From NCBI RefSeq assembly GCF_042242105.1, contig NC_092017.1:2393652-2457651 (forward strand): a stretch of 64,000 bases of DNA. Direction: 5' to 3'. Shown here in pieces: positions 4,048 through 59,600 of this stretch. The notes below the pieces were generated by a model. It worked only from the letters and a program-made list of their open reading frames with translations, ran no database searches and had not been told where the DNA came from. How positions within the stretch are numbered: the stretch's first letter is position 1; each line of letters starts with the position of its first letter. This DNA comes from Pempheris klunzingeri. Lineage: Eukaryota > Chordata > Actinopteri > Acropomatiformes > Pempheridae. Made by a program: the position numbers and the translations under genes.

Positions 4048-4283
4048 CACTGTTGCCCATAAAGTTGGAATAAAATGTTTTTTACCTCTTCTCATGAAAT
4101 GATTGTGACAATGTGATTTATTCTTGATAAATAAAGTTTATATCTTCTCAACTTTATTGATCAAACTCTTCCAAACAGATCACAGTGAAACTTAAACCAC
4201 AATGAACCTTTGCAAACTGTGTATTCAGGCTTTAACAAGATTGGGGGTATTGAACAATTATTCCAACTTTATGGGCAACAGTG
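4048..4283. mobile_element. 236-bp Tc1/mariner-type MITE, copy 1
   Basis: The element starts CACTGTTGCCCATAAAGTTG and ends with its inverse, ..CAACTTTATGGGCAACAGTG after a short mismatch, so it has terminal inverted repeats of about 25 bp. TA lies on both sides (4046-4047 and 4284-4285), the target duplication typical of Tc1/mariner transposons. It has no coding capacity. A close copy lies at 50387-50624, which confirms the boundaries. Confidence 0.9.
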
Positions 4284-4285
4284 TA

Positions 4286-6479
4286 TAAAGTATAGTAATA
4301 AAACTATATATTTAGATTGGGGATTGAAATAGCAATAAAATACCAAATAATAGTAAGACAGTAAGAAAAAATAAGTTATTTAATTGATCATTTTAAGCAC
4401 AGAAAAAACAGGACATGATCTCTCAGTGGCTTTTCAGCCACAAACAATGTCAACTGTGTTGCTTGCAAGGTGTCTGCAGGGGCAGGCCACATAAATACCT
4501 TAGTTTTAAGTGTGCAAACTGATGCAGTTGGTTGAAATGCTTATCAAAAATATAACAATGAAACAACTGAATTACACTTATTTTGACTCATTATTACAAT
4601 ATATGTCGCCGACCAATAAAAAAAGATATGGACCCTAATAAGCGGAAATAGAGTATCACGTCATATTTATTTTGTGCTTCCAAGTGCTCTAGGTTCATTC
4701 ATTCATTCATTCATTCATTCAAGATTTTGTGTTCAATTGCATTGAAAACTACTCTGAAAACATCCAAATGAAGTACTGGCCTGTTTGTGTATCACTGAAG
4801 AGTGCGTTGATCCCCAGATAACACTGGGATAATGAAGCAGTTGGTTCTGCCTCACACACCTCAGCTGTCTGGATTTCTTTTGTTGTGTTTTGTTATTAAG
4901 GATCATCTGAAGAATACTTACAGCCAAGCTTGCACACAGTCTCACATTTACCTTCATTTACAGCAACTCGTGCTTGTACTTTATTATGGAGACCCTGTAC
5001 TGAAGAAGTATACTGCGGTAATAAAACAGTTTATAATGCTTCATTGTGGTGTCAGCTTGTGTGGATACAGTAGTAGAATGTGGTGCAATGCAGTATAACA
5101 CTAACAACATGAGTCAAAATTCAACCTAAGTTTTCTGTTACATGTTGCTTTATTCTTCAAGCTTCTTCTTTGTATTAGACCGTTCTGATGTGTTTCCTAT
5201 CAATAAAGTAGCCATGTATATGTATGTTTTTCCATGTAGCACATCATGAAGACAGGGGCAGGCATGTTCACAAAATACTTGGCAGACAAGTGAATGAACC
5301 ATCTGTTTTCAGCAAATCAGATCAATGAACCATATGATGTTGTTAAAACTGTTACTGAAGCCAGTCGAGTAGCTAAAAGATCTTTTCCATCAAGAAAAAT
5401 ATTCAGTGCTGTTATTTTGCTCCTTTCAAAAAATAAATACTCATTATCGTTATCTGCGCTATCCACCTTTCTTGTTTTGGATCAGTTGTCTCTCACTGTC
5501 GTCACACCTGAACCCTGCCTGTAGTGTAATGCTGATTGGTCCAAAACACTGTGTTTTTTACCACAAACATATAGCTTGGAGTCACAAAGCCAGCTGCCTC
5601 ACAAGGCTGCTACATCCCTCAATGTATTTGCCTTGCCAACACATTGTACAATAGTCTCATCATGATATTCAAATCCCAAAACATGTTCATTATGAAGTGT
5701 ATGGTGTGTGGAATGTGCCACCAGAATAACAATCGGCTCAAATGAGGTTTTCCCGTGAAACAGCAGCACTATTTAACTCACACTACCAACGGGTTTAGCA
5801 CAGTGTATAACTGTTGATAACGTCACAGTAGCTGTAAGCAACTAGCCTAGTATGTATAGAAACCTGAATGTAAAGAAAGGGGAAGCTGCCACCTGTTGGT
5901 AGAAAGAGTTTGTCACATTAAACCAAACTCAATTCTATATACTACATCATCACTACCTCATAGCTGTGAGCTTTGATGAGTGCGCACATTGAAAAAAACT
6001 ATTCATAGGGCCATTAAATTCATTTGATTTCTCAATAAGAAGCTTAAAATGGGCCCTGAACTTAGATTATTTGTCAAAATAAGATTTATTTTGCATTTCT
6101 TATTTTAAGCAACTGATTGGAGGTTAGGGAAAAAGTATACATCTTTATATTTCCCTATTTTGATGAATTAACTATTTCATTCTACAACACAGCGTTGCAC
6201 AACAAAATGCAAGTTGAAGTCCGGTTTGCTGCATAATAAGAAAATAACTGTTTTATGGTGAAATGTGGACAATGAATTGAGGAGTTTTATAGCCTGAAGA
6301 AAGAAGCAGATACTTCTGTATCTTCAGGGTGAACAGGTCATTACTGTACTACACTCTCCTGTCCTGAGCCATGCACATCCCATGCCAGTTGGTGATGTTT
6401 CAAGTCATGATGTCTTCTGTTGACAAGAGTTGACAAGAACATGGCATGGGAATATTTCTCAAGAATTACAGCTATTTCT
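4286..6479. other. Intergenic DNA without recognised genes
   Basis: I see only short chance frames. The one clear feature is an (ATTC)n run at 4694-4720. Around 5886-5899 there is a CTCF-like motif, reported in the findings. Confidence 0.5.
4694..4720. repeat. (ATTC)n tetranucleotide repeat
   Basis: About six and a half perfect ATTC units in tandem. Confidence 0.95.
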
Positions 6480-22145: not shown

Positions 22146-25100
22146 CAATATTAACTACAGAAACAAATGAAAATGACCTCAAGGATCTGCATGTCTAATC
22201 TTGTGGCCGTGTCTCTATCTATCTCTTTTTTAAAAAAGAAGAGCACAGTTAGCAAAGAAACATTTATTGATAACCTTCCGCTCACCATAGTCACCACTCT
22301 ACATCTCAGTGAAGGAATGAACAGAAATAAATAAACTCTTATTCAGTGATGACAGACGGTCAAATAGAGGTAACCTGGATTTAATTATGCTTGATGCAAT
22401 GAGATGATTCTCATTGCATCAAGCTTAAATTTGGATTTCTACATCGAGGCTTCATCTTCCTAAATAAATGACACCAATTAGTACCAACTGAATGACACAC
22501 TCACATCCTCCTTCCCATATTCATTGGGAGTAAGGAACATTCTGCCGCTTCAGACCTTCATCAGTGTAAAACATGTACACTACTCACAAAAAGTTAGGGA
22601 TATTCGGCTTTCAGGTGAAATTTCAGGATGAACCACCACCAATACATTTCCTGCTTCAGTTAGAATTGGTATTTAAACAGTCCTCCTCATCCTGCTGTTC
22701 ACATTCTGACATCAGGAGACCAAGACGACACCTAACAATTGATCAGCAGCACCTCACAGTCACAGAAAGGAGAGGAGTGGACGTCCTTTGGCCACATCCC
22801 AATGTTACGTTTACCCTCGTTTACCCTCCACTGTTGTTAGCTTTTCTTTCAATAAATTGTTTAAGATGAAGAAACTACCATTGCATGCTGATACTTAAAT
22901 GCCCTACTTTCATGATATAATGTCACTGTAGCATTCACTTTTTACATTTTCCATACGTTTCACCTGAAAGTCGAATATCCCTAACTTTTTGTGAACCCTG
23001 TATTTGCTCGAGTAATTTAATGTGAAAAAATCCTCTGCAAGCAGGCACTCTACTCACAAGGTAATACAGTGACGTTTGGCCATGTGATCATCATAATTGT
23101 TTTGTTTTTGCCTTGTTACGTTTGTGGAAAGTGGCATGTTTGTGTGTGTATGTGGAAGAGACGTACCTGCTCGTTGGCACGTGGCCAAAAGATGGCCGTT
23201 AGGAATACAGCGGTAATGGGCGGAGCCAGAAAGCTGGTGACTGACTGAATATAGTCAAATAGCTGTCCACTATTGGCTGTTTGGATGATTGGAATCCACA
23301 AAAGACTAATGCACACTAAGACCAGGATGAAGACCCTGAAAGAACACGACATTAGGACGTCAAAGTGGTAAGAACACACAGTGACCTACTTTAAACTCCA
23401 CCAACCTCGTGTCTGTGTGGTTCTAAATCACAAATGATACAAAAGATAACAAATACATTTCACTGCATCATCAGTTAAACTCGTCTGGAATGAATGGATG
23501 GCCAAGAACCATCCGACGCACAGGCAGAGGGAACACAGCAACACGTAGATGTGGTGGTCAGCACGGATCGCCTCACAGCAAGAAGGTTCCAGGTTCGAAT
23601 CCAGGTTGGAACCTGGAACCTTCCTGTGTGGAGCTTGCACGTTCTCCCCCCGTGCCTGCGTGGGTTTTTCCAGCTTCCTTCCACAGTCTAAAGACATGCA
23701 GCTTAGTGTGAGTATGATGTGTGCATGAGTGGTTGTCTGTCTCTGGGTGTTGGCTGATGACCTCTCCACCCAAAGTCAGCTGGCTCCAGCTCCCCCGCGA
23801 CCCTGACGGATAATGGATGGATGTACTGTGTATCCCTCCCTCGTGTTGTGTATTGTTGTGTAATGTGTCACTGTGATTGCTTGTTTCCCTTTTTGTATGT
23901 CTATTATGTATGAAAGTAAAAGTGTTCATAAAAAATACTCTCAGAATTCATTCATTACTCCGTTCAGACAACTCAAATGGATCAGTTCTACTCTACTAGG
24001 CACCAGATGTAGAGCAAACCATTTCGCAAAGAAACTCCAGAAGAAAACTAGAAGATTATTTATGCATCACTCTCTTGGCACTCCTGGGCTGATGTATCTC
24101 ACCATCCCTGTAGTCTTGGAGACGCAGCCACAATAACATTAATCACACTAGTACTAGTACTCCTCTTGGCCATTACAAATGTCTGGAACACAATCCTCAT
24201 TAACTGGAAATCAAGAAAGGCCATAAGCATTACATGGAGCAGAGCATCGTTTTTTTAAAAATCACAGATTATACAATCTGACTCAGCCTTTACCTCCCAC
24301 TCATCAACTTCCTGCAGTCTTGTTTTGACCTTCCTTACACTACATATCACACCAGCAACATGCAGTACAAGGGTAAACCACCATCAGGCACAAATCTCAA
24401 ATATTGTCCCTGGTTGTGTATTTATGTGGCAGAGTGTGATCTCCGGCTTACCCCTACCTTCCAACAACCATAAGTTCCATTTCTGAGGCTTTAGGCCTGG
24501 CTCTGTGATAGAGGTCCAGTGTAAACAGAGTAGAGCTGCTGTTAAAGATGGAAGTCAGAGATGACATGAGTGCAGCTAACATCACTGCTAGCATCAGACC
24601 ACGAAGACCTGCACAGGCAGAAGGAAAGGTCTACATTACATTACACAGTATGTCCCACTGTAAAGGCACCAAGCAGTACCTCACTGCCTCCAGTCATTCC
24701 AGGGAGGGGACAGCGGGAACTGCCTGGCAGGTCAAAACAACTGAGGCAAGCATCTTGGTTAAAAGAGGAGCAATGAAGGAGCTGATAATGTGTCCATGCT
24801 GCTGGTGTCCAGATGTCCTAAGCTGTAGAGCACAGTTAGTTATAAAGAGCTGCCTAAAGCTAGCTTGCACAGCTACTACTATGTAAAATGAGTGATTTTT
24901 GATTTGGTTTACAAGCTGTTTGTGTAGACAGAGAGAGAAATAAAGAGAAAGAGTCCTACGAACACTATGATGTAATTACAGCATCAGAATGTCTTCAGGT
25001 GGGTAGCTGTCAGACAGGATGTCACACAGGGGTGAACGGCGACTCTAAAAGTGTGTAGTAAATAACGTTTGAATTTCAAGCACTGCATGGATTTAAGTAT

Positions 25101-34669: not shown

Positions 34670-34860
34670 CATGAAGCCAGAGAACCACAGCAGGAGAACC
34701 AGGACCAGGATCCACAGGAACCAGAGAACCACAGCAGCAGGACCAGGACCAGGATCCACAGGAACCAGAGAACCACAGCAGGAGAACCAGGACCAGGATC
34801 CACAGGAACCAGAGAACCACAGCAGGAGAACCAGGACCAGGATCCAAAGGAACCTGAGAG
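34670..34860. repeat. Minisatellite, about four units of about 45 bp
   Basis: The unit contains CCAGAGAACCACAGCAGGAG and ACCAGGACCAGGATCCACAG. It lies in what should be the 3' UTR of the LINE next to it. Confidence 0.9.
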
Positions 34861-44870: not shown

Positions 44871-45671
44871 GGGTTTCTGGTCAGTAACGATAGTGGAAAA
44901 CTGCTTCTTGTTTTTTTAGAGATCCTCCTTGTAGGAGCTCACATGGTCTCTGTAGGTCTGAATTTTAAATGTAGAGACAAAAACACCCCAGTTTTGCACA
45001 TGTGGTGTCATTGCCTCAGCTTGTGGGAAGTCCCACTTGAGAAGGATGTGTCAATTCATGCATGTGGTGCGTTTTATTCTCTCGAGTCAACAGCATCCTT
45101 GCTCTACTGCTCTTCTTTTCTAAAAATCCTATTTTCTAAATCTCAGAGACCGCTGGGCCAATCATCCCAAAACTTATCTTACTGTGAGTTGTTAGAGGAA
45201 TTACAATGATACATCAATCCGTTTCAACTATACAAAGAAAGGTATATGAAAATAGACACGTAGTCATGTGAAACAGTCTTCACAAAAGCTCCTAAGCTGC
45301 ATCAAATGTTCCTTAAAGTAGAATTTATATACACCAACAGAACGTGTATTTAGACTTTGTCTTAAACAAAACACTAATGTCACATTAACTTCCTTGGCTG
45401 CCTTGAGTAAAAACTAGTCTCTGCCTTTCTGATTCTGCTTTTCCCACATGCTAATGTTGCTGGGCGTTCATTAAAGTGTATGGATGATGCCCCACATCTG
45501 CTTCCAAACCAACAGACTTCTTTGTATTTGGTAAAGATGGCTCCTGTTTCATCTTCATGACAGTAGTGCTGTATGTACACACGTTTTTCAGATTCCATGA
45601 GCGTACTGAGAGTCCGTATTAAACTAAATGTAGATCAATGATCCCAGGAGGAGTTAACAAAAAAAAAGCAC
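44871..45671. other. Intergenic DNA between LINE remnant and mrpl55
   Basis: Only chance frames. Nothing is recognised. Confidence 0.5.
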
Positions 45672-45677
45672 TTTATT
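45672..45677 (-). terminator. Possible mrpl55 polyadenylation signal
   Basis: TTTATT on the plus strand, next to an A run, lies about 515 bases after the mrpl55 stop. It would imply a 3' UTR of about 0.5 kb. Confidence 0.4.
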
Positions 45678-46192
45678 CAAATGGAGGGTTTGTTTAACAT
45701 GTCATCTAAGAGCAGGGAGATGACAGGCCGCTGCCTGTGGCAACACACCAGTGACAGTACACTGTCACTACCTACCTACTGGCAGTACCTCTGTCTTTGT
45801 GAATGGCCGACCAACCAGGGCACAACACGCCCATCAACATTTGCAACAGCAGAACAACAACATCTATAACAACAAGTGTTATATGAAAATTCCCCACCCA
45901 GATAAGCAGCTTTACAATAATTTATTACCTTAAAACTGTTACATATTCGAGGTTTAACAGGTTATGTACACTTCACAGAAGGGAACGTCAGAGTCCAAGT
46001 TTAACTCTGCAGCAGACCTCCCCCCCTGCTGCCCGTGATGTTCAGTCATCCTACCATAGAAATGTCATGTAGTCCAGGTTACAGTGTTCCATGATTGATC
46101 GTTATCTTTTTTGGTACATGAATGTTCCAATTTCTAAATACTTTGTGGGCAAACGCTGTCCCAGTTCCACTTTACATTCACAGACGAAGACG

Positions 46193-47940
46193 TTACTTCC
46201 TCTTCCAGAAGTGGCTGTATTTGTCAGCTTTAAAGTCGTCTTCATAGTAGACTGCCGTCTCTTTTTTCGTCTTCTTCACTTCTCTCTTTTTCTGTCGAGC
46301 TCGACGCTCTTCTTCCGACAGAGTGGCCAGATTAACTGGCATCTTTTAAAACACATGAAGAAACACCATTACATTTACAAAACATGAAACATGAACGTAC
46401 ATACTACCTGACTCATGTGCTACAGGACCAGTGCAGCTTCATATCTTCAGCATGCACATTCTGATTCTGTCATTATGTGACTGTTAGTTGTCAGTATTAA
46501 CAGGATTGGGTTAAGGTAGGGTAAGGTAAAGTAGAGTAACCGGTCGGGTGATTAGACTTAACTTAACATATAAACCAGATTTAGTTAAAGTTAAAATACA
46601 CAGATGCTATTGACAGCACAGTAAAGAGATCGTCCGACAAACTGGAAATGACGTAGCACCGGAGAAGAAGAACATCAGACACCATCAGACTCAAGTCTGA
46701 TGAAATAACCCCGATCGGGCCGTAGTGACGTCATCAGGGTTATCTCAGCTTTTGCTTGGGGACTAGAAATGTATAACTGTTCTCAACCCATACATCACTT
46801 TAACCCCTGATGTGTTTTATCTGTCCCTGGAAGTCCCCAAACTCAGAGAGACGCTAGGATCAGTAGCTCTTGTTCTAGTGGCATATGTTGCTTCTGTTGA
46901 TCACTGCTGGTTTATGGGATGTTGTTGTCATTTTACTGGCTTACAGCAGTTGTTGCTCCTCTTCCACTGCCTTAAAGGGGCGAGCACTGTGTAAAAAGCT
47001 GATACCACAACATTATAGTATGTTAAATACCAGGCACAGCTGCTTGTCAGGAAAACAACAGGTCATACAGCCTGAGGATAGAGGAGATCATTTTCATGTG
47101 GCACACAGCAGCAACACACCACTGCCAGTTATCTCTGCTATGCCTTGCAACAGTTTACCACGGGCCCTCACTACAGCTACAGGAAACAGTTCAAACTGGA
47201 GGCAGACAACATCCTTCTTTCGGCACTAGTATACCAGCATACTAACAGTGACCTGCTGAAATGAAGAGAACTAGTACATGTATATCATAACTATCTATCT
47301 ATTTTGGTATTGGTCCAGATCTAGATGAAATGTCCGAGACATTGTTCTACTAAAAACTATGCATATTCAGTGTGTCCCTCATGTTTCCATAAGCTAGAAA
47401 AATAAAACCAGTGTTGAAAATGTAATTCATTCAGCTTGAGTTTATTCTAAGGAGACTTTCCAGTGGTTCCTGAAGAGCACACAGCTGAGTGGAGCAGGTG
47501 TTGTACTCACCATGAGGACGCGCCTGGGCTCTCTGTATCTAATGCTGACCGTGGATCCGTCAGGCCTGACCAGCAGCACGGGGTACAGCCGCTCGTATCT
47601 CTGGCGACCGTAGCGGACCACCGAGGTCCTGTTGGAGTTCAGCTGCGGCGTGTGGCTGTGGAGCAGAGAAGCCTGGCCACGGAGCGGCCACACCGGCGAG
47701 CAGTCTGTCCGGGGGGGGAGGACAGGGCAGACACACCTGCCGGACACACACACAGCATTATGGGAAACTCAAGCTACTTCATCCATGGAAGTAAACAGCT
47801 CGACGGTTCAGCAGTGACCCTTCGTCTCCTCCGAGCTACAGGTTGGACAGCCTAACTTCAGCTCTTGTGTTAACCTAGTGACAGAGCGAGTCTTACCGTG
47901 ACAGCACACTCCGTGGAGAACACAGCCTCAGTAGAAACAT
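46193..47940 (-). CDS. mrpl55: Mitochondrial large-subunit ribosomal protein L55, complete
   Basis: MRPL55 is a small metazoan-specific protein of the mitochondrial 39S ribosomal subunit. Three minus-strand exons join in phase: 47897-47940, 47511-47736 and 46193-46342, giving 139 residues against 128 in human. The N-terminus [15 protein letters not shown] is basic and leucine-rich, as expected of a mitochondrial targeting peptide. The conserved core reads [20 protein letters not shown] and EPRRVLM. Exon 3 starts exactly at [20 protein letters not shown] and ends in [12 protein letters not shown], which parallels the human 'yrqfWtrtkk' end. An eight-C run in exon 2 keeps the frame. The gene looks intact. 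The start is the only ATG before the core in this frame. Confidence 0.95.
46343..47510 (-). other. mrpl55 intron 2
   Basis: No recognised repeat family or exon. Its acceptor is ttttaaaag, with a poor polypyrimidine tract. Confidence 0.6.
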
Positions 47941-48289
47941 GTTCGCTGTTTGGAAGACAGACAATTTAAACGTAGGACGGCGGCCGGGTGGTGAAGCAGA
48001 CACACACCCGACAGGAAGCTCTTCACCGGAAGGTCAAACTTCTTCTTCTTCGTGTTTAATGGAGGATCGCAAAGTAACTTTCGAGGCGCATACCGCCACC
48101 TACTGTACAGGCCTGTGTAACACATGGCATTAAATCACCTGCATACTGATTCTTCTCTGAAGTCCTGCCCTGTTACATGTACTGTATTTATTAATGTCTC
48201 CCTCTCTGAATTATATTTCCTACAATGCCTGATAATGTGTTCTACATCTTCCAGAGTTGTACTGTTGCCCACATGTAGGAATGTTTCGG

Positions 48290-48550
48290 GTGTGACTCTG
48301 GTGGCCAGCTGGGGCCTTTCTGTGTGCAGTCTGCATGTTCTCCCTGTGCTTGCGTGGGTGCTCTCTTGGTAGCAATTGGTGATTGTGAGCAGCCCGCAGG
48401 TGTGAATGTGAGTGTGAATGGTTGTCTGTCTCTATGTGTCAGCCCTGTGATAGACTGGTGCCCAGTCCAGGGTGTACAGGGTCTCGCCCAACGTCAGCTG
48501 GGATTGGTTCCAGCACCCCAGCGACCCTTAAGGATAAGCGGTATAGATAT
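48290..48550 (+). mobile_element. SINE-like repeat, copy 2
   Basis: Words such as CTGCATGTTCTCCCTGTGCT, TGGTTGTCTGTCTCTATGTG, ATAGACTGGTGCCCAGTCCA and CCTTAAGGATAAGCGGTATA are the body and end of the abundant teleost repeat. The tRNA-like head is missing. Confidence 0.75.
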
Positions 48551-50386
48551 GTTATTTGCGTGTCAAATGTGTGCTCGGTAAGTGCAGAGCTGGATGAACT
48601 TGTGTTAAGAGCTGAACATGACTACGAATGCAGACAGAGTTATCTCATTTGTTGTACAGAAACTTGTCTCAAAGATCACAATGAAACCCCAAGCCTATTA
48701 CGATACTGACACATGTGAAGAGCAACTCTTCGACGAGACTACTTGAGAGATTATCTTTCAATCCTGCCAGGATGCCACTTGTGAATACAAGGAATTACTG
48801 TGAGGAAAAAGTGAAATCATTAAGGCAAAAATTGAGTTTAAAATAAATTGGAGGGTGAATTTGTAACTGGTAAAATAGGACAGGTGTGGGATGGATTAGA
48901 CACTTTAATGGGTACGTCCAGTAGAAAGTGATAGTCTTGGATGCAACAGTCAAACCTTTAGTAATGAACTGAACAACTTCTTCTGCAGCTTTGACACTGC
49001 AGGTGGCAGGACAGCCTGATGAAATATGAAAGAAATCTTCCTAAGACAGCAACAGTTATCACTGTGGATAACTGCAAGTCTTTATAAAACTTAAAAAGCA
49101 AATAAGACCTCTGGCCCAGCTGGACTACAAGGAGATTGTTTCAGTCTTTCCTTGACTCGTGCACACTGCCACAATCATGGAAACTAGCAATAATCAGGCC
49201 TGTGCCAAAAAATTAAATATGCCAAATGACTTTCAGCCAATTGCTATATCCTCCATATTGTGTAAAACTGTGGAACAAGTTCTGACCAGTCGTTTGACCC
49301 CCAATGTGGCCACTTTGCTAGATCCACTCCTGTTGGCATATAAGAGCAACAGAGGCACAAGTGATACTGTGCTGACTCAGCTTAACACAGTGACAGAACA
49401 ACTTATCCCAGAGGACATGCCAGGATTTTATTTGTGGATTTTAGCTTGGTGACGGCACTCTTCATTGATCTCAACATCAACGCAGGGTTAGTCCTCAGGG
49501 TCTGCCATCCACAGAGGGTCTGTGTCAGGGGCAGTTTATCAGTCATGGCTGCCCACAATGGTGTGCTCTTCCCCCTGTGCTATTCTCTCTCTTTACTTAC
49601 AAAGCCAAGATAAATGACAAATATTTCAGGATGACATTCAGATGACTTGGCTTTAGTTGGACATCTTGAGAAAATTGATTTATCCTCTTAAGACCTGAGC
49701 TCTTGTTTGATATGCATTTTTTATTTCTCCTTGCTATTTGGGCTTATTGGACCCTGATAAGTATAAAACCTAAGCATCATCTTTTTACATGGTATAGTTT
49801 TAGAGAAACATTATGTCCACATATGTGGACAATCAGTCTTAATTTCCAGAAAACACAATAAAGTCACCTTTGTGCAAAACTCTTTATTTCCAGCCTGAAC
49901 ATAGCAGTTTTTTTTCCTGACTGCTTGTGCATGTATTTATAACACATACAAAACATATTTTGCAAAAAACAATGTGAAATATCAACAATTTTGCCCACAT
50001 ACATGTCCATACGGCCCCAGCTAAGCAAAATTAACTACTATGGTAATATAACCCAAAATGTGATGTCCACGCATGTGTACGCCAGGTCTTTAGAGGTTAA
50101 TAGACGAAGCTACCTGTGTGGCCCACACTAGGGACCTTCAAACATGGTGTCATGTTAGCCAGCTGTAAATCATTGTGGCCAAGATGAATGAATTACTTAT
50201 CTGCACAAAACCAGATCTAAAAGCAGAGCCAGCTTCACCTGATGGTCAATGTGTTGAAACTGTGGACATCTTAAAATACCTTGGTACAGCACTGGACTCC
50301 CAGGTGAGCTGCTCTAAAAATACTCAGTATCTTTCCAAGAGATGCTCCCAGCGACTTTATCTTCTTAGAAAAAGTCACTGTGTATA
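48551..50386 (+). mobile_element. Decayed non-LTR retrotransposon, RT pieces
   Basis: The plus-strand frame 49159-49452 reads NDFQPIAISSILCKTVEQVL and LDPLLLAYKSNRGTSDTVL, the early RT domains ('DFRPVAltsilcKxxExxl', 'lDplQFAYkxxRgxxDA'). 50175-50438 reads VDILKYLGTALDSQVSC and RLYLLRK, the region after the RT palm. Frames are broken between them. The second piece is cut by the MITE at 50387. Confidence 0.8.
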
Positions 50387-50624
50387 CAAACTGTTGCCCA
50401 TAAAGTTAGAATCAAATGTTTTTTACCTCTTCTCATGAAATGATTGTGACAGTGTGATTTATTCTTGATAAATAAAGTGTATATCTTCTCAACTTTATTG
50501 ATCAAACTCTTCCAAACATATCACAGTGAAACTTAAACCACAACGAACCCTTGCAAACTGTGGATTCAGGCTTTAACTAAATTGGGGGTATTGAACAATT
50601 ATTCCAACTTTATGGGCAACAGTG
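50387..50624. mobile_element. Tc1/mariner-type MITE, copy 2, inside a LINE
   Basis: Nearly identical to 4048-4283 through its whole length, including AACTTTATTGATCAAACTCT and the right end TTATGGGCAACAGTG. The left end is slightly altered (CAAACTGTTGCCC). TA-containing words flank it (tgtata on both sides). Confidence 0.88.
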
Positions 50625-50714
50625 TGTATACTGTGTGATTTTAGAGCTAGTGTGAACTATTCTAGGGGACTTTAAATGAGAATATGGGACCTTTTAAAGG
50701 TTGTTTGTCTAGAT

Positions 50715-50968
50715 CAGGGCTGTCACATACATCAGCATACTGGTATCCCTCAAAGGGCCACATGTAACTGGAAGACACTATAAATGTAACTAAATGTAAT
50801 GTAAAATAAATGCAGCTACTCCTTAATGTTAAATGACTGAACTTTTTACTTATTCAACACAAAAGACATGCTGGTTTTTCTCCTTGAAGCACAAACATGT
50901 ATTCGCCTTCCCATCTTTCTTGAAACAGCCTTCCATCTGCATCAATTTTTCAGAGAGGAGGTGTGGCA
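50715..50968 (-). mobile_element. hAT left-end fragment, copy A
   Basis: From CAGGGCTGTCA to GCATCAATTTTTC it parallels 52901-53371, but lacks about 220 internal bases (break at TTCAACAC) and the part after TTTTTC. Confidence 0.75.
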
Positions 50969-51077
50969 GGAACATTTTCACATCTGAAAATATAGAGCCT
51001 TCAGTCATGACTAATAAAGCTGCCACCCTTCAGTATTAAGTTCATTGCACTACACCATGAAGTATTAGTTTTTCAGT

Positions 51078-51369
51078 GTGTTCTGTTCTAGTTTCAGCAG
51101 TGAGCGACAGCACCTGGACCTGCCCGCTGCGCCCCACCTGGACCAGCCCCCCGTACTGCACCTGGACCAGCCCCCAGATGTCCACCAGTCTCTGAGCCAG
51201 CCACCAGGTGCCCTGCGCCCAAGCGCTATTTTACTTGCTGCCCTAATAAACTGTCCTGCGGTTTCTCTTCTGTTCCTCGCTTCTTTTCTACCTCCTCCTA
51301 CTGGACCTCAGTGAACCCCCCCCCCCATTTCTACCTCTTGCTGCTCTTGCTGTTCCTGCCCCTGCTCTT

Positions 51370-51401
<32 letters not shown>

Positions 51402-51660
51402 GTCGCTCTCCTTCCCCTTGCCTCTCTCATGTCTCTTGCTCAGATGTCTCCCATCCTGCTCGCCCAAGTTCCCATCAAAGCTCTCCCCTTTCTCTCTCCC
51501 CAGGGTGGGAGGAGGACACCTGGACTTTGGTGCACCCCCGCCAGGCCAGTGAGTTATGGCCAGGCCTGGAGCCAGAGTGGGTAAGAAACATGAATAAGGC
51601 TATGAGATTGAGAAATGTGTTTGGCAGCAGGTGGTGAAAGAGATCTGCAGAACCTGCAGG
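51078..51660 (+). other. GC-rich stretch with repeated 'CACCTGGACC' words and a poly-C run
   Basis: CACCTGGACCAGCCCCC-type words recur at 51110-51180. A run of 26 C lies at 51376-51401. The segment 51502-51576 runs from a ctccccag acceptor-like site to a TGG|gtaaga donor-like site and could be an exon or part of an unknown transposon. I do not recognise a protein family. Confidence 0.4.
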
Positions 51661-52371
51661 TAAGTCTTCAGATAAGTCTTAAGGTAAGACTTAAGGTAAG
51701 TATTAAGGTAAGACTTAAGGTAAATATTAAGGTAGGTATTAAGGTAAGTATTAAGGTAAGACTCAAGGTAAGTATTAAGGTAAGACTTAAGGTAAGTATT
51801 AAGGTAGGTATTAAGGTAAGTATTAAGGTAAGACTCAAGGTAAGTATTAAGGTAAGACTTAAGGTAAGTATTAAGGTAGGTATTAAGGTAAGTATTAAGG
51901 TAAGACTCAAGGTAAGTATTAAGGTAAGACTTAAGGTAAATATTAAGGTAGGTATTAAGGTAAGTATTAAGGTAAGACTCAAGGTAAGTATTAAGGTAAG
52001 ACTTAAGGTAAGTATTAAGGTAGGTATTAAGGTAAGTATTAAGGTAAGACTCAAGGTAAGTATTAAGGTAAGACTTAAGGTAAATATTAAGGTAAGACTT
52101 GAGGTAAGTATTAAGGTAAGATTGAGGTAAGTATTAAGGTAAGACTTAAGGTAAGTATTAAGGTAAGACTTGAGGTAAGTATTAAGGTAAGACTTAAGGT
52201 AAGTATTAAGGTAAGACTTAAGGTAAGTATTAAGGTAAGATTGAGGTAAGTATTAAGGTAAGACTTAAGGTAAGTATTAAGGTAAGATTGAGGTAAGTAT
52301 TAAGGTAAGACTTAAGGTAAGTATTAAGGTAAGACTTAAGGTAAGTATTAAGGTAAGACTTAAGGTAAGTT
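51658..52371. repeat. 12-bp minisatellite resembling tandem 5' splice sites
   Basis: Roughly 59 tandem units of 12 bases, mostly AAGGTAAGTATT and AAGGTAAGACTT, with GTAGG, GTAAAT and ACTC variants. In the first half six units form a 72-bp higher-order repeat that recurs about five times; the second half alternates two unit types, with occasional 11-base units. Plus- and minus-strand open frames of 128-171 codons through it are artefacts of its periodicity. Confidence 0.97.
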
Positions 52372-52900
52372 TTTTGGTTTTCAAGGTCCCTTTAATAAAT
52401 CATTGCAGGGAACAAACAAAAATCACAGAGAGACCGTCACTATTACTAAGAGAAAAAAACCTGAAAACCAACCAAACCATTCGTCAATACAAAGTGAAAC
52501 GAGGTGCTGCTGTAATCAAACATCAGAAGGTCAGCACCAGTTCTCCACCTCCTCCTACACAACACAGAACGTCCCCAACAGTCCACCTGTGAACAAAAGC
52601 CTGCACATTGTCCACCGTTTGATAATATGCGTGCTGCACCTTTAGACGAGCCTTCACCGGTCCCTTCAGGGTGGATCCACACTACCAGCACTCTGGGCAC
52701 GGTTTCTCCGTGTCAGCCAGACAGCCAGCTTAGCAGAGCCAGACAAAAAATGAACCAAAGTGTGTACATGCTTCTTTTTCCCAGAGTATTTGGGGCCGTA
52801 TACAAACAAATCAAAGGAAAAAACCTCTCCGAGACCCTGAAACCATGTCCTTAGGAGAGGTGACGGCCGGGGACACTGACCAAAAAGATGCTGTAAGGCA
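52372..52900. other. DNA between minisatellite and second hAT copy
   Basis: Only chance frames; nothing recognised. Confidence 0.4.
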
Positions 52901-53542
52901 GGGCTGTCAAACTCCTTTTCACCGAGGGCCACATCCATCAGCATACTGGTATCCCTCAAAGGGCCACATGTAACTGGAAGACACTATAAATGTAACTAAA
53001 TGTAATGCAAAATAAATGCAGCTACTCCTTAATGTTAAATGACTGAATTTTTTACTTATTCAACTTACAAATATTACATATATATTTGTATAGATGTAAA
53101 AAAAAAAAAGGTGTTTGTTATTATAACATAAATCCTTTTAATTTATCAGGTTATGAAACCCACATTACTCCATCAATCAACGCTCAAACGTCGACACTTT
53201 GGCATACATAGCTCCGTGTTTGGTGTCAAAATGCCGACGTAGATTGTACTCTTTGACAACCGCCACCGCCTCATAACACAAAAGACATGCTGGTTTTTCT
53301 CCTTGAAGCACAAACATGTGTTCACCTTCCTGTCTTTCTTGAAACAGCCTTCCATCTGCATCAATTTTTCTCTTCCTGGACATTTTGGGTCATTGTTGGT
53401 ATTTCTAAATTCACTTCGCGGGTAACATAATCGGCATGCATTATGGGAAATGTAGTTTGTGGTTTTTGATTTTTGGATTTTAATACAATCAGACCTTTTA
53501 AGCTCTCGCGGGCCACATTTGGCCTTGAGTTTGACACATGTG
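52901..53542 (-). mobile_element. hAT-derived element, copy B, with zinc-finger-like frame
   Basis: It starts CAGGGCTGTCAAACTC and ends GAGTTTGACACATGTG, inverted terminal repeats of about 16 bp with mismatches. The minus-strand frame 53177-53383 reads MSRKRKIDADGRLFQERQEG, then CLLCYEAV and NLRRHFDTKH, a C2H2/BED-like finger found at the start of hAT-Charlie/GTF2IRD2-type proteins. The catalytic part is absent. Confidence 0.8.
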
Positions 53543-53579
53543 GTCTAGATGAATTGTTAATTGGAAGATCACTTAACGG

Positions 53580-53770
53580 GGGCTGAAGCCAGTGCCAGCT
53601 GACATTGGACGAGAGGCAGGGTACACCCTGGACCTACGCTCTGGACTGGTCGCCAGTCAATCACAAGGCCAACACATAGAAACAGACAACCATTCACGCT
53701 CACACACTCACACCTCCTGGCAATTTAGAGTCACCAATGAACCTAACCGGCATGCCTTTGAACTGCAGTA
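53580..53770 (-). mobile_element. SINE-like repeat, copy 3, inverted
   Basis: Antisense words of the same teleost repeat: GGTACACCCTGGACCTACGC, GACTGGTCGCCAGTCAATCA, AACAGACAACCATTCACGCT and AATTTAGAGTCACCAATGAA. Confidence 0.75.
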
Positions 53771-54889
53771 TTGTGACCAAGCAGCAGCCAGCCGCAAGCA
53801 ATTCTGCTTCTCTGCGTCCTGCCAAAGCTAAAGAAGCCATGCTAGAGTAGCAATACTCCTCAATACGTCTCTCTCAGTTAGCCCCACAGAGCAGCAGTTC
53901 TTCAATGGTTAGCTCCAACACTTGCTACATGGGGCTCCATCACTGTTTCCCTGTAGGAGCAAAGAAAAGTAGCTCTATTTTCTCCCAAACTCACCAACTA
54001 AGCAGTAGCAGTACGTTACACTTTCACACTCACCTCCGTGTTTCACTAGGTTTAGGTACATGTATGAAGCTGACCTTAATGGGATGCAGCTGCCTGTAGC
54101 TCAGCTCAACTTAGGGTACTGGAGCTGCTTATGGAGCGTTGAGTCAGATGGAGACTTGGAACTGCTCATATCCAATGAGGAGAATGACTGCCTTAGTGCC
54201 ATCATGTCAGGCTACAAAGGCTGCGCCATGGATGCATTGGACATGCAGTATGTGTGTAAACACGCTGCAAAGAAGCTCAGGCCCCACCCTGCAAGCAGAG
54301 ACAACCACATCTCCCTATGACATAAGAAAAACTGCCCAAGATAAAGACAACAGGTAAATCGCTTCCTCCCATCTTCCCAGAACTCCTGGATGAGCTGGCC
54401 ATGACATAGCAAGCCAAGCCATACAGAGACAAGATCCGGTAGTCCCTGCTCAAGAGCAAGGGGGTTGAGGCACGCATGCTGCATCAGATACTGCACTGGT
54501 TCCCAGTTATGGCTTCCCATCCTCAGCCCAACAACCCTATGACAGCATCGAGGTCCTCCAAACCTGACCGCTTTCAGTGTGGCCTGGCGAAGAGCTACAG
54601 AACTGGAGGATGAGATGATGGCAAGGCCAGGAAGAAAATGTACATAATTACCAGCCACTGTCTACACCTCCTGTCGTCCAGGCTACAGGCAGAAGAACGG
54701 GCCTGATGGTCCTACAAGAGAGAAGTAGGTGGTTAAACCTCACCAACCTCGCCACCAGGGGGAAAGAGGATCTCCTACACTAAAGCTCTATTTGCTCAGG
54801 TAAGCTCAGCTGAGCACAGCAGGTCCCTAACCCATGCCTGACCATAGGAACCCCAGGGCTCAGTCTGCTCAAACAAACCTCTAGTCTGT
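53771..54889. other. Probable old transposon DNA, unclassified
   Basis: Frames at 54060-54357 (+) and 54212-54658 (-) are open for 72-148 codons, but I cannot tie them to a family. The position next to an RNase H remnant suggests parts of the same LINE. Confidence 0.35.
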
Positions 54890-55440
54890 CCAGTCATAAA
54901 GTAGGTGCATCTGTAGTCCTAAATCTGGACTTACTAACTGAAACAGTGGTAATATGTTCAAGAGTAACAGAACAAGGCACTAAGATCAGAGTCACTTTGG
55001 TTCCTGCTCATATTATGGGTAATGACAGAGTGGACAAACTAGTCAAACAAGCTGTTAAAATATACAAATATGTCTTTTTGAACCTTGTCAGGTAGCAGGA
55101 ACTGTAGAACATGTGTGTGTTATCAGATATATATATCAGAGACAAAAGGACACGATGAAAGAAATGAAAAGATCAGGACTAATAGGAGCAGGGTTCAAGA
55201 GAGGACTGGAGTATGATGAAAATGAACAAGGCAGAAGATTTTTTTGTCAGTTGCCTTGAGTAGGGAAGTACTATTGTTTCTTTGTGTATACACGGTTTTT
55301 TCTGTATATATTATGTTTATTTAATTTTCTATTTCTTTAACTGTGTGCTTTGTCTGTCCCCTTGAGCTGCTGTAAATGCTGCAAACTTTCCCCACTGAGG
55401 GGAAAAATAAAAAGTTTTTATCTTTTTATCTTTATCTGAA
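54890..55440 (+). mobile_element. LINE 3' part with RNase H trace
   Basis: At about 54985-55060 the plus strand gives RVTLVPAHIMGNDRVDKLVK, which resembles the 'WVPAHxGxxGNExADxLAK' end of an RNase H domain. The element ends in A-rich DNA with TTTTTATCTTTTTATCTTTA at about 55415-55434. Confidence 0.65.
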
Positions 55441-55483
55441 GGGAAACACCTGACACTACTCCCTCCGGTACAATAGGGGGCGG

Positions 55484-55617
55484 TGCAAGCCGCCATTAAA
55501 CCAGGAGAGAAAGAAGAAGATGAAGAAGAAGAAGAAGAAGAAGAAGAAGAAGAAGAAGAAGAAGAAGAGTCTTGTGACCGAAATGAGGAAGTATTTGAAA
55601 GGACTCAGCTGCTGCCG
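55484..55617 (+). promoter_or_regulatory. Possible non-coding first exon of ctns
   Basis: GCTGCCG at 55611-55617 is followed by gtaagtaa, a strong donor. The next acceptor in reach is ctccag at 56591-56596, 27 bases before the cystinosin ATG. The 5' limit is a guess. Confidence 0.45.
55515..55569. repeat. (GAA)n trinucleotide repeat
   Basis: About 17 GAA units in a row after one GAT interruption. They give a poly-Glu frame that is probably not translated. The repeat lies in the likely 5' UTR exon of ctns. Confidence 0.95.
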
Positions 55618-56596
55618 GTAAGTAATCATCTCTATTGGGTCGGAGGAGGCATATGTGGTTCGCTTCTTCCATAGTTAACTGTACTTCACCGTGTTCCCAA
55701 TGGAGGAGACAGAAGAGTGACCTTCTGAACTTATTGTGAGTAAAGACGCAGGTCCCTGTTATTTATCCTCCAGACACCCGGAAGAAAAAAGGTTTGAAGA
55801 CTTAGAGTTTTTCCATGATTGAAGTAACTGGGACATAAAAACATATCACACAGGTTTGTTGTTACATACATTACAGTGAGCACATGAACTAGTGTTACAT
55901 TGGATCAACCTTGTCCCACTAAAAGGACCCTAGCAGCTACTGTTGACTTCCTGGTACTGTCAGGACTGCTCTGATGACACAGGACCGAACACCTCCAACA
56001 CCAAGGAGATGGTCATGGACTCACCCAGTCCCTTAGTGAGGAAGGGACATCAAGGTGGTGCAGTCCTACATGGGTGGACTGGAGGAGCAGCTCCTCTCTG
56101 AGGGAGGACTGAGGGGTACAGAGGGACCTGTGGCCCCACAGACACCAGACTGTACACCCCCTCAGCTGGGGGCAGTGGCTCATCACCCACCCCCCCTCTC
56201 TCCTTCTCCCCCAGCTCTCTGACTGACTTCACTGGAGCATTGACTTCATTGTCATTTATTATTTGTCAGTTTTATTGTTAGTTTGACTATTTGAGCTGTA
56301 GGATACCTGAACCCCCCCCCCCCCCCCCAGGGGATGAGTGAAGCATCTATCTACCCATTTATTTATTAATAAGAAAACGATACATGTTCTTTTCAGTTCG
56401 CTGTAATTCGATTATTTGTCTGTGACGCTGAAGTCCGGCCCGAACCATCACAGCCTTGGTTCTGTACTTACTCTGGTTTCATGTGCACCACGTCTAACCT
56501 GAAGCAGCGGTTCAATGTAATGATTTGACATTAGGAATGTGAATGAGATTGCTGTGTGTAGTTGCTGAGGTGCTTTGTGTGCCTTATGTCCTCCAG
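55618..56596 (+). other. Probable ctns intron 1
   Basis: Contains a C run at about 56312-56328 and short C-rich repeats. No gene is recognised. Confidence 0.45.
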
Positions 56597-56622
56597 GTTG
56601 GCAGTATCCTCAGGTTGCTGAG

Positions 56623-59600
56623 ATGTCTGGCTTGGCGAAAAGAAGGCTACCTGCTAAGCTCCTGCTCCTGCTGATGCTTACCAACATCTCTGGTGATTCA
56701 CTGTTATGGCTATTTAAAGGGATTCCACTGGCTTCAGTGGGAAAAAAATGATTCTAATGAGCCCACAGAGTGTGTGCTGACACAGAGGGCTCTGGCAAAA
56801 AAAGTGTGTGTGTGTGTGTGTGGTTCTGAAAATTCATTCATTCAAAACACATTCAATAACGTCTCTATGAGTATGATGACAAAATCATGAACACGTTTGC
56901 TATATGATGATGCCAGTCTGTGTACTGTTTGTTTCTGTGATCATCTTGGATTAACTGTCCACTTTTTCCTTGTCCTTCAGAGTCTGGAGTGCATTTGTGT
57001 GCTCCTGACAGTGTCACACTGGAGGAATCCTCTAAAGCCAACATCACCATTACTTCCAGGTAACTACAGAAACACAGGCTGCACGAGAGTTTCACAAAAG
57101 GTCTAACAAAAAGCAAGGTGCTTGCGATTTGCAAACCTGCTGTATAATCTGGATGCTCTGCAGGATTTGTTAGGCTACAAAATGCTTTTAACCAACCACA
57201 ACATTCATCTACAAGTTTGTTATTGTGTGCAATTGCTATCTCAGAATAGCAATTGTTATATGTATTGTTATATATTGCTGTTTAAAATCTATAGCTTCAA
57301 CCTCTATACTACTACAGACTGTGGTTGTGAATAAATGAATGGCACCAACACAACCAGGAGCATAATGCATAATAACAATGTTGCTGCATGTGACTTCATC
57401 CAGCTCTCGCTGGATCCTTTTATCAGCAACCAGACAGAGAAATCTCTGCTCTCCGTCAACTGTCCTTTTTGTTAAAAAGTTGCGGTCACCGTTGTGCATG
57501 CATGTAACACACAGGTAGCAATTGTGTCTGCAGCGTTAGCTCCACCTTTTAGTATTGGCTCAGCTCACTTAGAACCTCCATTAAAAGTGGTACCAAAAAA
57601 GGTACCAGGTACTATCCACAACTTTGGCCAATGGAAAACCCAAAAGAACTGTTTTCAGTGAGGAGAGTCAAGTCAAGCTGTACCATTCAGTGGAAAAGAG
57701 GCATGATACAACACTCACTTAATACAGTACTACAGTGCTGCAGTGAAGCTACTGAATACTGCTTCTGCCTCATGGCAAAGGCGTGAGTATGAATAAAGGA
57801 GAAACTAAAAAAGCAAATAAACATTTCAAGTTACAGAAATAACCGTTGGGATCCTGCTAGCTGTTCTGTCTCTATAGCTTGCTGAAGCAGCTGTCAGGAT
57901 CAGTGTTGTGCTGACAGGATGTTTGTGTCTTCCTCTAGTTTTCCTGTCACCCAGTCAGCTGTGCTTCATTTAAATGTAACCTACAGCTCCAAGTGGAACT
58001 ACTCCTCTATAATCACAGTGCCTGAGCAGGTAACGCATGAAGCTTCTTCTGGATCAGTCTGGATTTACGTGTTATGTTTATGGATCACTGAGCTTGGCAC
58101 CAGCTGATTGAAAGACAGACTAAGTTAGCCCTTTCCTCCAAACCCCTTTAAACACTTCCTGCACCCAGGCTAATAAGTTGTCTTTCCCTGCTTCCCAGAG
58201 GTGACAACATTCTTTTCCCTCCCCCTTCGTAGCCAGCCCCGGCCTCTTGCACCTGTAGCCACACCTAGCTTTCTTTCTCCTTTTACCCCTTCACTCTCTG
58301 TACTTCCCTTTACCAAAGGAGAAGAGGATGAATCTTAATGTTTTAGGTGACACCACTTTATCTTACCTCTAGCAGCATCTTCCTGTTCATATACCTTAGT
58401 ATGAATCCCATGAAATGAAAGTTGGCGAACAAAATGCCTCATAAATGTAGAGATAATAAAACTGTATCCACACTATGCTTATAGTGCCAATACACTTATA
58501 TTCCAAACTCCCCCTAGGAGAAAAGAAGCAGATAGGAAGTACAATCTGTTGCCGTCTTGTGTCCTAGAGCTCCACAGTTGTCCAAAAAAGATTAAGATGT
58601 TTCAAATAGAACGAACAGAACTTAGATCTCTGTGAGCTTGAACCACATTAAACTCATTATCAGTGTTGTGTACGCTGAAGAGAGCAGAATTAATAGCATG
58701 GATCACATTTAGCTCCGGTCTCGATGCCTAACTGAGCAGAGGATGCATGGAACTATGTACCAATCAGTTGTTGACAGTTTGTTTTCATCTTGTCTTTGGT
58801 TAGGTGCTGCTGCCAGTGAATGCAACCTCAGTCAGTTTCGATGTGAAATCCCATGATGTGGGTCAGGTGACCACATACCTGTTGAGCAACAACTCAGACC
58901 TCAACAGGTGAGTCAACACAGAAGCAGCATTTCACTTTCCTTATCTTCCATCAGTCTAGCATGGCAGTAAAGTCAGTCAGTGACTATCAGTGATACTACT
59001 GTGCACTATGCTACTTTGCCACTGTCCACTTTCTTAGTTTTTCTTTCTTCTGTAGTTTTCCTGTCAGAATCCGCTTTATGGTCGTCCACAGCCAAGCCCT
59101 GTCAGTAATCAGTCAGGTGATTGGCTGGATCTACTTTCTCGCCTGGTCGGTGTCCTTCTATCCGCAAGTTTGGGAAAACTGGAGGAGGAAAAGGTAATGT
59201 TCTGCTTGTCATGGCAGACAACTCCAGCTTAGATTTTTCCATTTCCAAACTAGAAACAGTTTGAGTCATTTTAAGTCTAAAAATAAGCAATGTAAGTGAA
59301 GAGTTGGGCTTTCTGTGACATCCACACCACCAGTTGTGTCATCATATAAACACTAAGCATCTGATGAGCTCAGAATTAATTCCAATCCCGAATTATTGCC
59401 ATAGTGAAAACTAGTTACATTACATTGATTTTTGCACCAAAAATAAGCCACAGGGGCCAGGCCAAGAAAGCGTAGCCTCCTTTTCATCAATCACAGGTGG
59501 TCATCTGAAATTAAGAAGCTGGATTCTCTGTTGGTGCACATCCAAGATATATGCAGAAGAATAAAGTTTCACATCACAAATGAATAATGATTTACTTCAC

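Follow-up and report, generated by a model that had tools for sequence, protein, structure and literature searches.

Is a tandem run of 5′ splice-site matches in a fish genome a working set of splice donors, or the overgrown remnant of a single exon end? The question is raised by a minisatellite in the stretch of the Pempheris klunzingeri genome analyzed here (64,000 nucleotides; hereafter, the window), in which the initial annotation saw about 59 near-consensus 5′ splice sites, a 72-bp higher-order repeat in the first half, possible growth from an exon-end donor, and a possible function in splicing or U1 binding. The minisatellite is real: Tandem Repeats Finder reports a period of 12 and 59.7 copies (51658–52370), and parsing on the plus strand gives 60 units. 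Twenty units are AAGGTAAGTATT (A) and 16 are AAGGTAAGACTT (B), with eight further types completing the unit string, HIBABFCADABACADABACADABFCADABACADABFBEGEBABEBABAGEBAGEBABABJ. The higher-order repeat is likewise present, as five six-unit blocks read off this string, with 98.8% identity at a lag of 72 over 51694–52090. Of 53 occurrences of the motif AGGTAAG on the window's plus strand, 51 fall inside the array, which excludes chance as the cause of the array. We rejected the idea that the array is coding: although much of it can be read in one open frame (KVSIKVRL), the three 11-bp units shift that frame. Elsewhere in the window, at 34677–34859, there is a 44-bp minisatellite of 4.2 copies, CCAGAGAACCACAGCAGGAGAACCAGGACCAGGATCCACAGGAA.

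Judged by score, the array units are strong 5′ splice-site matches. With a donor matrix and a threshold of 8 bits, 59 sites score at least 8 bits in the 60-unit array (82 per kb); for the window outside the array, the same matrix finds 0.84 such sites per kb of plus strand and 0.70 per kb of minus strand, and it gives scores of 6.4–12.3 for ten donors of the CTNS gene read off the window, one of them from a presumed 5′ UTR exon. Against the 5′ end of U1, AUACUUACCUG, the unit AAGGTAAGTATT pairs at 10 of 11 positions, reproducing the initial count for the main unit, and AAGGTAAGACTT at 8 of 11.

We searched for relatives of the array in the window's own assembly (646 Mb). Three loci carry an exact copy of the 20-mer AAGGTAAGTATTAAGGTAAG, namely the window and two others that we label C3 and C7, and the reversed control of this 20-mer has no match in the 646-Mb genome. 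A looser pattern, AAGGTAAGNNTTAAGGTAAG, occurs at four places, three of which are this array family. The fourth, on C17 (L054, 4801–5404), is an unrelated 24-bp array of GGTTAAGGTAAGGGTTATGATAAG that carries GTAAG, does not adjoin the array family, and has no match in the C3, C7, and C4 stretches. With four sites in 646 Mb, three of them one family, the array is not a widely dispersed satellite unrelated to any exon end, the outcome that had been named as speaking against an exon-end origin. Outside the fish genome, two array units have no matches in viral contigs, where the hAT-like and LINE-like peptides described below also have no relative; bacterial genomes yield a single match, in a Burkholderiales bin (L001, 7821–7857) where TCAATACTTACC is repeated about three times, the reverse strand of a similar unit and probably a chance resemblance.

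The array on C3, in the region 24.770–24.781 Mb, comprises 34 in-register units and then GGTAA/GGTGA runs, and that on C7, in the region 26.750–26.760 Mb, has 22 units. All three arrays begin at the same base, directly after an exon-like segment, at CTGCAG/GTAAGT. A diverged fourth copy of the segment, on C4 (region 16.509–16.519 Mb), has no array: its boundary reads CTGCAG/GTCAGTCTTAAGGTAAACACTTTAG, and only two proto-units, CAG/GTCAGTCTTAAGGTAA, follow. Types A and B make up 36 of 60 units in the window, 27 of 36 on C3, and 12 of 22 on C7 (as tiled for that count), and the longest common run of units is five between the window and C3, two between the window and C7, and three between C3 and C7. 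The C4 copy looks like a pre-array state rather than a collapsed array, and the simplest order of events would run from a two-unit donor through growth and spread to separate changes in length. The proposed growth from an exon-end donor thus gains support from the three arrays at one exon-like boundary and from the two-unit copy. Upstream of that copy, on C4 (L048, L042), a stretch also present at the C3 locus is repeated six times in tandem at a spacing of about 1,350 bp.

Whether the adjoining segment was ever an exon is less straightforward. A genome search with the peptide of the C3 segment, in which all 10 candidates were scored, gave four matches. The frame is open on C3, is interrupted by one TGA in the window, and is open on C4 at 55% identity; on C7 the match covers the first 35 residues, and a 17-nt deletion follows. 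The boundary at the array start is common to all four copies, including the arrayless C4 copy, which keeps it together with one 6-nt indel and an open frame. Between C3 and C4, however, substitutions fall at codon positions one to three 13, 11, and 14 times in 153 aligned bases, and the differing codons comprise 24 nonsynonymous and four synonymous cases, so that no purifying selection is seen over these bases. No exon-like peptide matched Pfam at the curated cut-off, the sole hit being a weak one to NCH2 (C4, E 0.029). The acceptor-like tract, the conserved boundaries, the open frames on C3 and C4, the single 6-nt indel, and the cassette ends downstream on C3 would fit a former spliced exon, while the even codon-position changes and nonsynonymous excess mean that it may be non-coding; with evidence both ways, we call it ‘exon-like’. 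Upstream, among the best 40 of 113 candidates scored for 50952–51656, 36 of the 46 listed matches fall in 50952–51108, a piece of dispersed repeat. C3 is the best-preserved copy, with its open frame, its 34 in-register units, and the further GGTAA/GGTGA runs. Downstream of its array (about 24776.4–24779.4 kb, L010), 13 cassette ends of the form AAAAAA/GTAAG or GTACG follow GAGAG-rich exon-like parts, spaced about 190–250 bp.

A 2,828-bp insert bounded by hAT ends (50715–53542; Table 1) encloses the window copy of the array. The termini at these two outer ends are the same as those of other copies, and the 8-bp sequence GTCTAGAT stands on both sides of the whole insert; at the same spacing, other 8/8 matches form a single run (23456–23461) among 61,132 window positions. 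We read six other hAT copies. The three read to both ends have the same termini and exact 8-bp duplications (CTGTAGAG, CTTTAGAT, and ATCTAGAG), the remaining three agree over the 2–3 right-flank bases read, and the GTCTAGAT duplication is consistent with the NNNTAGAN flanks seen in the three fully read copies. The sequences flanking the insert (45000–50714 and 53543–57000) have no match in the C3, C7, and C4 stretches (29-kb stretches), whereas the insert itself matches. Given the hAT ends and the target duplication, the 2,828 bp behaves as one insert.

Table 1. Features in and around the hAT-bounded insert (window positions)
Feature	Position	Strand	Basis
Left copy of 8-bp target-site duplication GTCTAGAT	50707..50714		8/8 identical to 53543–53550
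Truncated left end of hAT-like element (CAGGGCTGTC...), without internal parts and right end	50715..50951		Alignments
Piece of dispersed repeat, present upstream of the C7 array too	50952..51108		88% to C7; genome matches
CACCTGGACC repeats (24 bp) followed by acceptor-like, pyrimidine-rich tract that ends in CCCCAG	51109..51503	+	Aligned with C3, C7, C4
Exon-like segment ending CTGCAG/GT; in-frame TGA at 51635–51637 in window copy	51504..51659	+	Protein search and alignment
Donor-like array, 60 units (57 × 12 bp, 3 × 11 bp)	51657..52373	+	Tandem Repeats Finder and unit parsing
Five 72-bp higher-order blocks within array	51729..52088	+	Unit string and lag-72 identity
3′ end of LINE-like element, short oligo-A tail toward array	52370..52896	-	82% to C3 17894–18380
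hAT-like element with both ends; zinc-finger-like frame start on minus strand	52899..53542		Genome matches and Pfam
Right copy of target-site duplication GTCTAGAT	53543..53550		8/8 identical to left copy

The insert is a composite. Its truncated left end (50715–50951), which aligns to the complete element and to its C3 counterpart, is 96% identical to 52930–53071 and 53275–53370. The complete hAT-like copy has 74 matches in the genome, some full-length (best 40 of 48 candidates scored), and its minus-strand frame matches the Spin-doc zinc finger at 1.9e-5 (24.7 bits, under the Pfam cut-off of 27.3); none of the array-region peptides sent to Pfam, the hAT-like, LINE-like, and exon-like ones among them, reached the curated cut-off. 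The element at 52370–52896, presumably a Tx1-like LINE, has no Pfam hit. On C3 the LINE-like piece likewise comes after AAG and before TTTTTTGG; we rejected growth of the array from its tail, as the same C3 junction adjoins GA-rich repeats, not the array. The C3 relative shares the starting hAT end, with ACATAGAC in front of it, and has ATAGAC after the LINE-like piece, which suggests that it lost its right hAT end. No match to the hAT-like element was found in the C7 array-bearing stretch.

Foreign DNA enclosed by hAT ends has been described for maize Ac/Ds macrotransposons and hAT gene-fragment capture (PMC3260210), and hAT elements are described as making 8-bp target duplications (PMC3942097). 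The fish insert is alike in having foreign DNA between hAT ends and an 8-bp duplication; it differs in that the element has its own termini and a NNNTAGAN-like target in the copies read, and its movement is deduced from these features. Macrotransposition is the route by which we infer that the array reached its site. The flanks of the inner complete copy match at three of eight positions, which fits macrotransposition, but may also reflect filler DNA acquired inside one element.

The insert sits between two gene starts, MRPL55 to the left on the minus strand and CTNS to the right on the plus strand. The CTNS start codon is at 56623, and 169 residues match solved cystinosin at 5.9e-71; the last MRPL55 exon is at 46196–46342 on the minus strand (9.2e-8), with a likely start at 47940. 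We rejected a local origin from an exon of either gene, as the insert that holds the array has a target duplication of its own and about 4 kb separates the array from each gene. Two copies of a short repeat with inverted ends, 95% identical, are also present in the window (4049–4287 and 50390–50628).

The array is probably a donor minisatellite that grew by slippage within a low-copy gene-like family, was carried to this site by a hAT composite, and is now inert. The ancestor would have been an exon-like segment ending in CTGCAG/GTAAGTCTTAAGGTAA (or GTCAGT, as on C4) with two imperfect 12-bp donor copies, so that a 5′ splice site would have seeded the minisatellite, which then would have grown by slippage and block duplication. 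Expansion to mostly AAGGTAAGTATT and AAGGTAAGACTT units may have preceded the parting of the C3, C7, and window copies, each array later changing length separately. The window copy would have reached the MRPL55–CTNS interval, with its 8-bp target duplication, in a composite bounded on one side by the left end of a truncated hAT element and on the other by the right end of another that is complete. It appears to have lost much of its interior and to have gained the stop in its exon-like part. The order of these events and the present inactivity are both read from sequence comparison, by which the window copy looks dead.

The same data could be explained by an ordinary minisatellite that carries GTAAG by chance, next to an ‘exon’ that is non-coding repeat DNA and never was an exon. 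The codon pattern between C3 and C4 fits this, as does the unrelated GTAAG-bearing array on C17. A genome-wide count agrees as well: three copies of AGGTAAGT separated by gaps of 3–33 bases give 55 overlapping matches at eight places, against 84 matches for the reversed control, so this crude count does not favor donors as preferential seeds of minisatellites. Against a chance GTAAG, three arrays start exactly at CTGCAG/GTAAGT past an acceptor-like pyrimidine tract, the arrayless C4 copy keeps the boundary with an indel of 6 nt and an open frame, and the 13 cassette ends downstream on C3 are donor-like. We consider this explanation unlikely.

A working array would have a precedent, and the closest known case is the minisatellite of the human interferon-induced gene 6-16 (IFI6, G1P3). 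The title of a 1995 paper by Turri, Cuin and Porter (Nucleic Acids Res 23:1854) says that this minisatellite provides multiple splice donor sites; it is said to have a 12-bp unit in about 26 copies that start near the end of exon 2, and the reading frame reportedly stays open with downstream donors. Two downstream repeat units of 6-16/IFI6 are described as acting as donors, yielding three mRNA species (PMC4526556). The fish array is alike in consisting of tandem units that match splice donors (59 sites of at least 8 bits). It is unlike the human one in that donor use has been reported there, whereas the fish array is known here from its sequence; in that read-through of the exon frame meets TAA where the first unit ends on C3 and C4, and two units in for the window copy, so that downstream donors do not keep the frame open; and in that the window copy has a stop of its own and lies between hAT ends. 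Other minisatellites are more distant. CeRep25B of C. elegans is intronic and linked to alternative splicing, with a 24-base near-palindromic unit that the available text of its report does not describe as a splice donor (PMC4039745), and the polymorphic minisatellites in the first and third introns of the Sparus aurata growth hormone gene are presented, in the available text, without a stated splice-donor link (PMC3045353). Among the literature results listed, with limited coverage of subscription journals, none described a splice-donor minisatellite from fish.

If the C3 or window array did work in this way, it would be transcribed, and several units would serve as alternative donors, the downstream ones adding an in-frame stop. 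The strong donor scores, the open frame on C3, and the human precedent agree with such a reading, as does the fact that, on C3 and C4, downstream units immediately introduce a TAA in the exon frame. The window copy, however, has its TGA and lacks the downstream cassettes of C3, and no purifying selection is seen between C3 and C4. The units themselves were compared by column in 112 twelve-base units from the three arrays, leaving out four 11-base units. Columns −2, −1, +2, and +3 have no change, as would also be expected under constraint, but column +1, the G of GT, at which a change kills the donor, has the most distinct changes (six, in seven units). The core columns +1 to +5 have nine distinct changes and the other seven columns 17. 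Changes at +1 in several units indicate that donor loss is tolerated there, although the counts are too small to argue against weak constraint. We regard a working multiple-donor array as very unlikely. The U1-binding or donor function proposed in the initial annotation is not supported, given the stop in the exon frame, the hAT-bounded insert, the variability of +1, and the donor-motif clusters (55 against 84 reversed).

Least probable of all, to the point that we discount it, is a role for the window array in binding U1, either to hold back premature polyadenylation or to sequester U1 on antisense RNA that starts at the MRPL55 promoter. Pairing at up to 10 of 11 positions per unit, an AATAAA at 52394, 20 bases past the array, and the probable MRPL55 start, at a distance of 3.7 kb and on the other strand, would suit it, but the plus strand has eight AATAAA/ATTAAA hexamers between this start and the array, so the RNA may well stop short of the array, and the array arrived within transposon-bounded DNA.

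An unrelated donor-like array lies on the minus strand of C13 (19937500–19946500; L061, L062, L063), with 37 units of 14 bp (AAAGGTAAGTGGTG), 25 having GTAAGT and 12 GTTAGT. It starts at an exon-like end, GACTTGTGAAAG/GTAAGT, below a promoter-like stretch, and stops shortly before the ATG of an intronless open frame of about 500 residues that ends in 27-bp coding repeats (GDWQPPNLP) and matches no Pfam family at the cut-off. This array keeps open the notion that donors seed arrays; it is not evidence of function. A bolder proposal is that a donor seeds a minisatellite by slippage when a further near-copy of it stands 12 bp into the intron, that the C3 array is transcribed and forms a length-tunable donor cluster whose downstream units add a stop, and that the C13 array is a second such birth; we regard it as a long shot.

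For the array family, a slippage-grown donor minisatellite would offer a before-and-after picture of the possible birth of a donor array, with a two-unit precursor and three expanded descendants, one of them delivered in transposon-bounded DNA. It also makes a question testable: are minisatellites seeded by exon-end donors more often than by other sequence?
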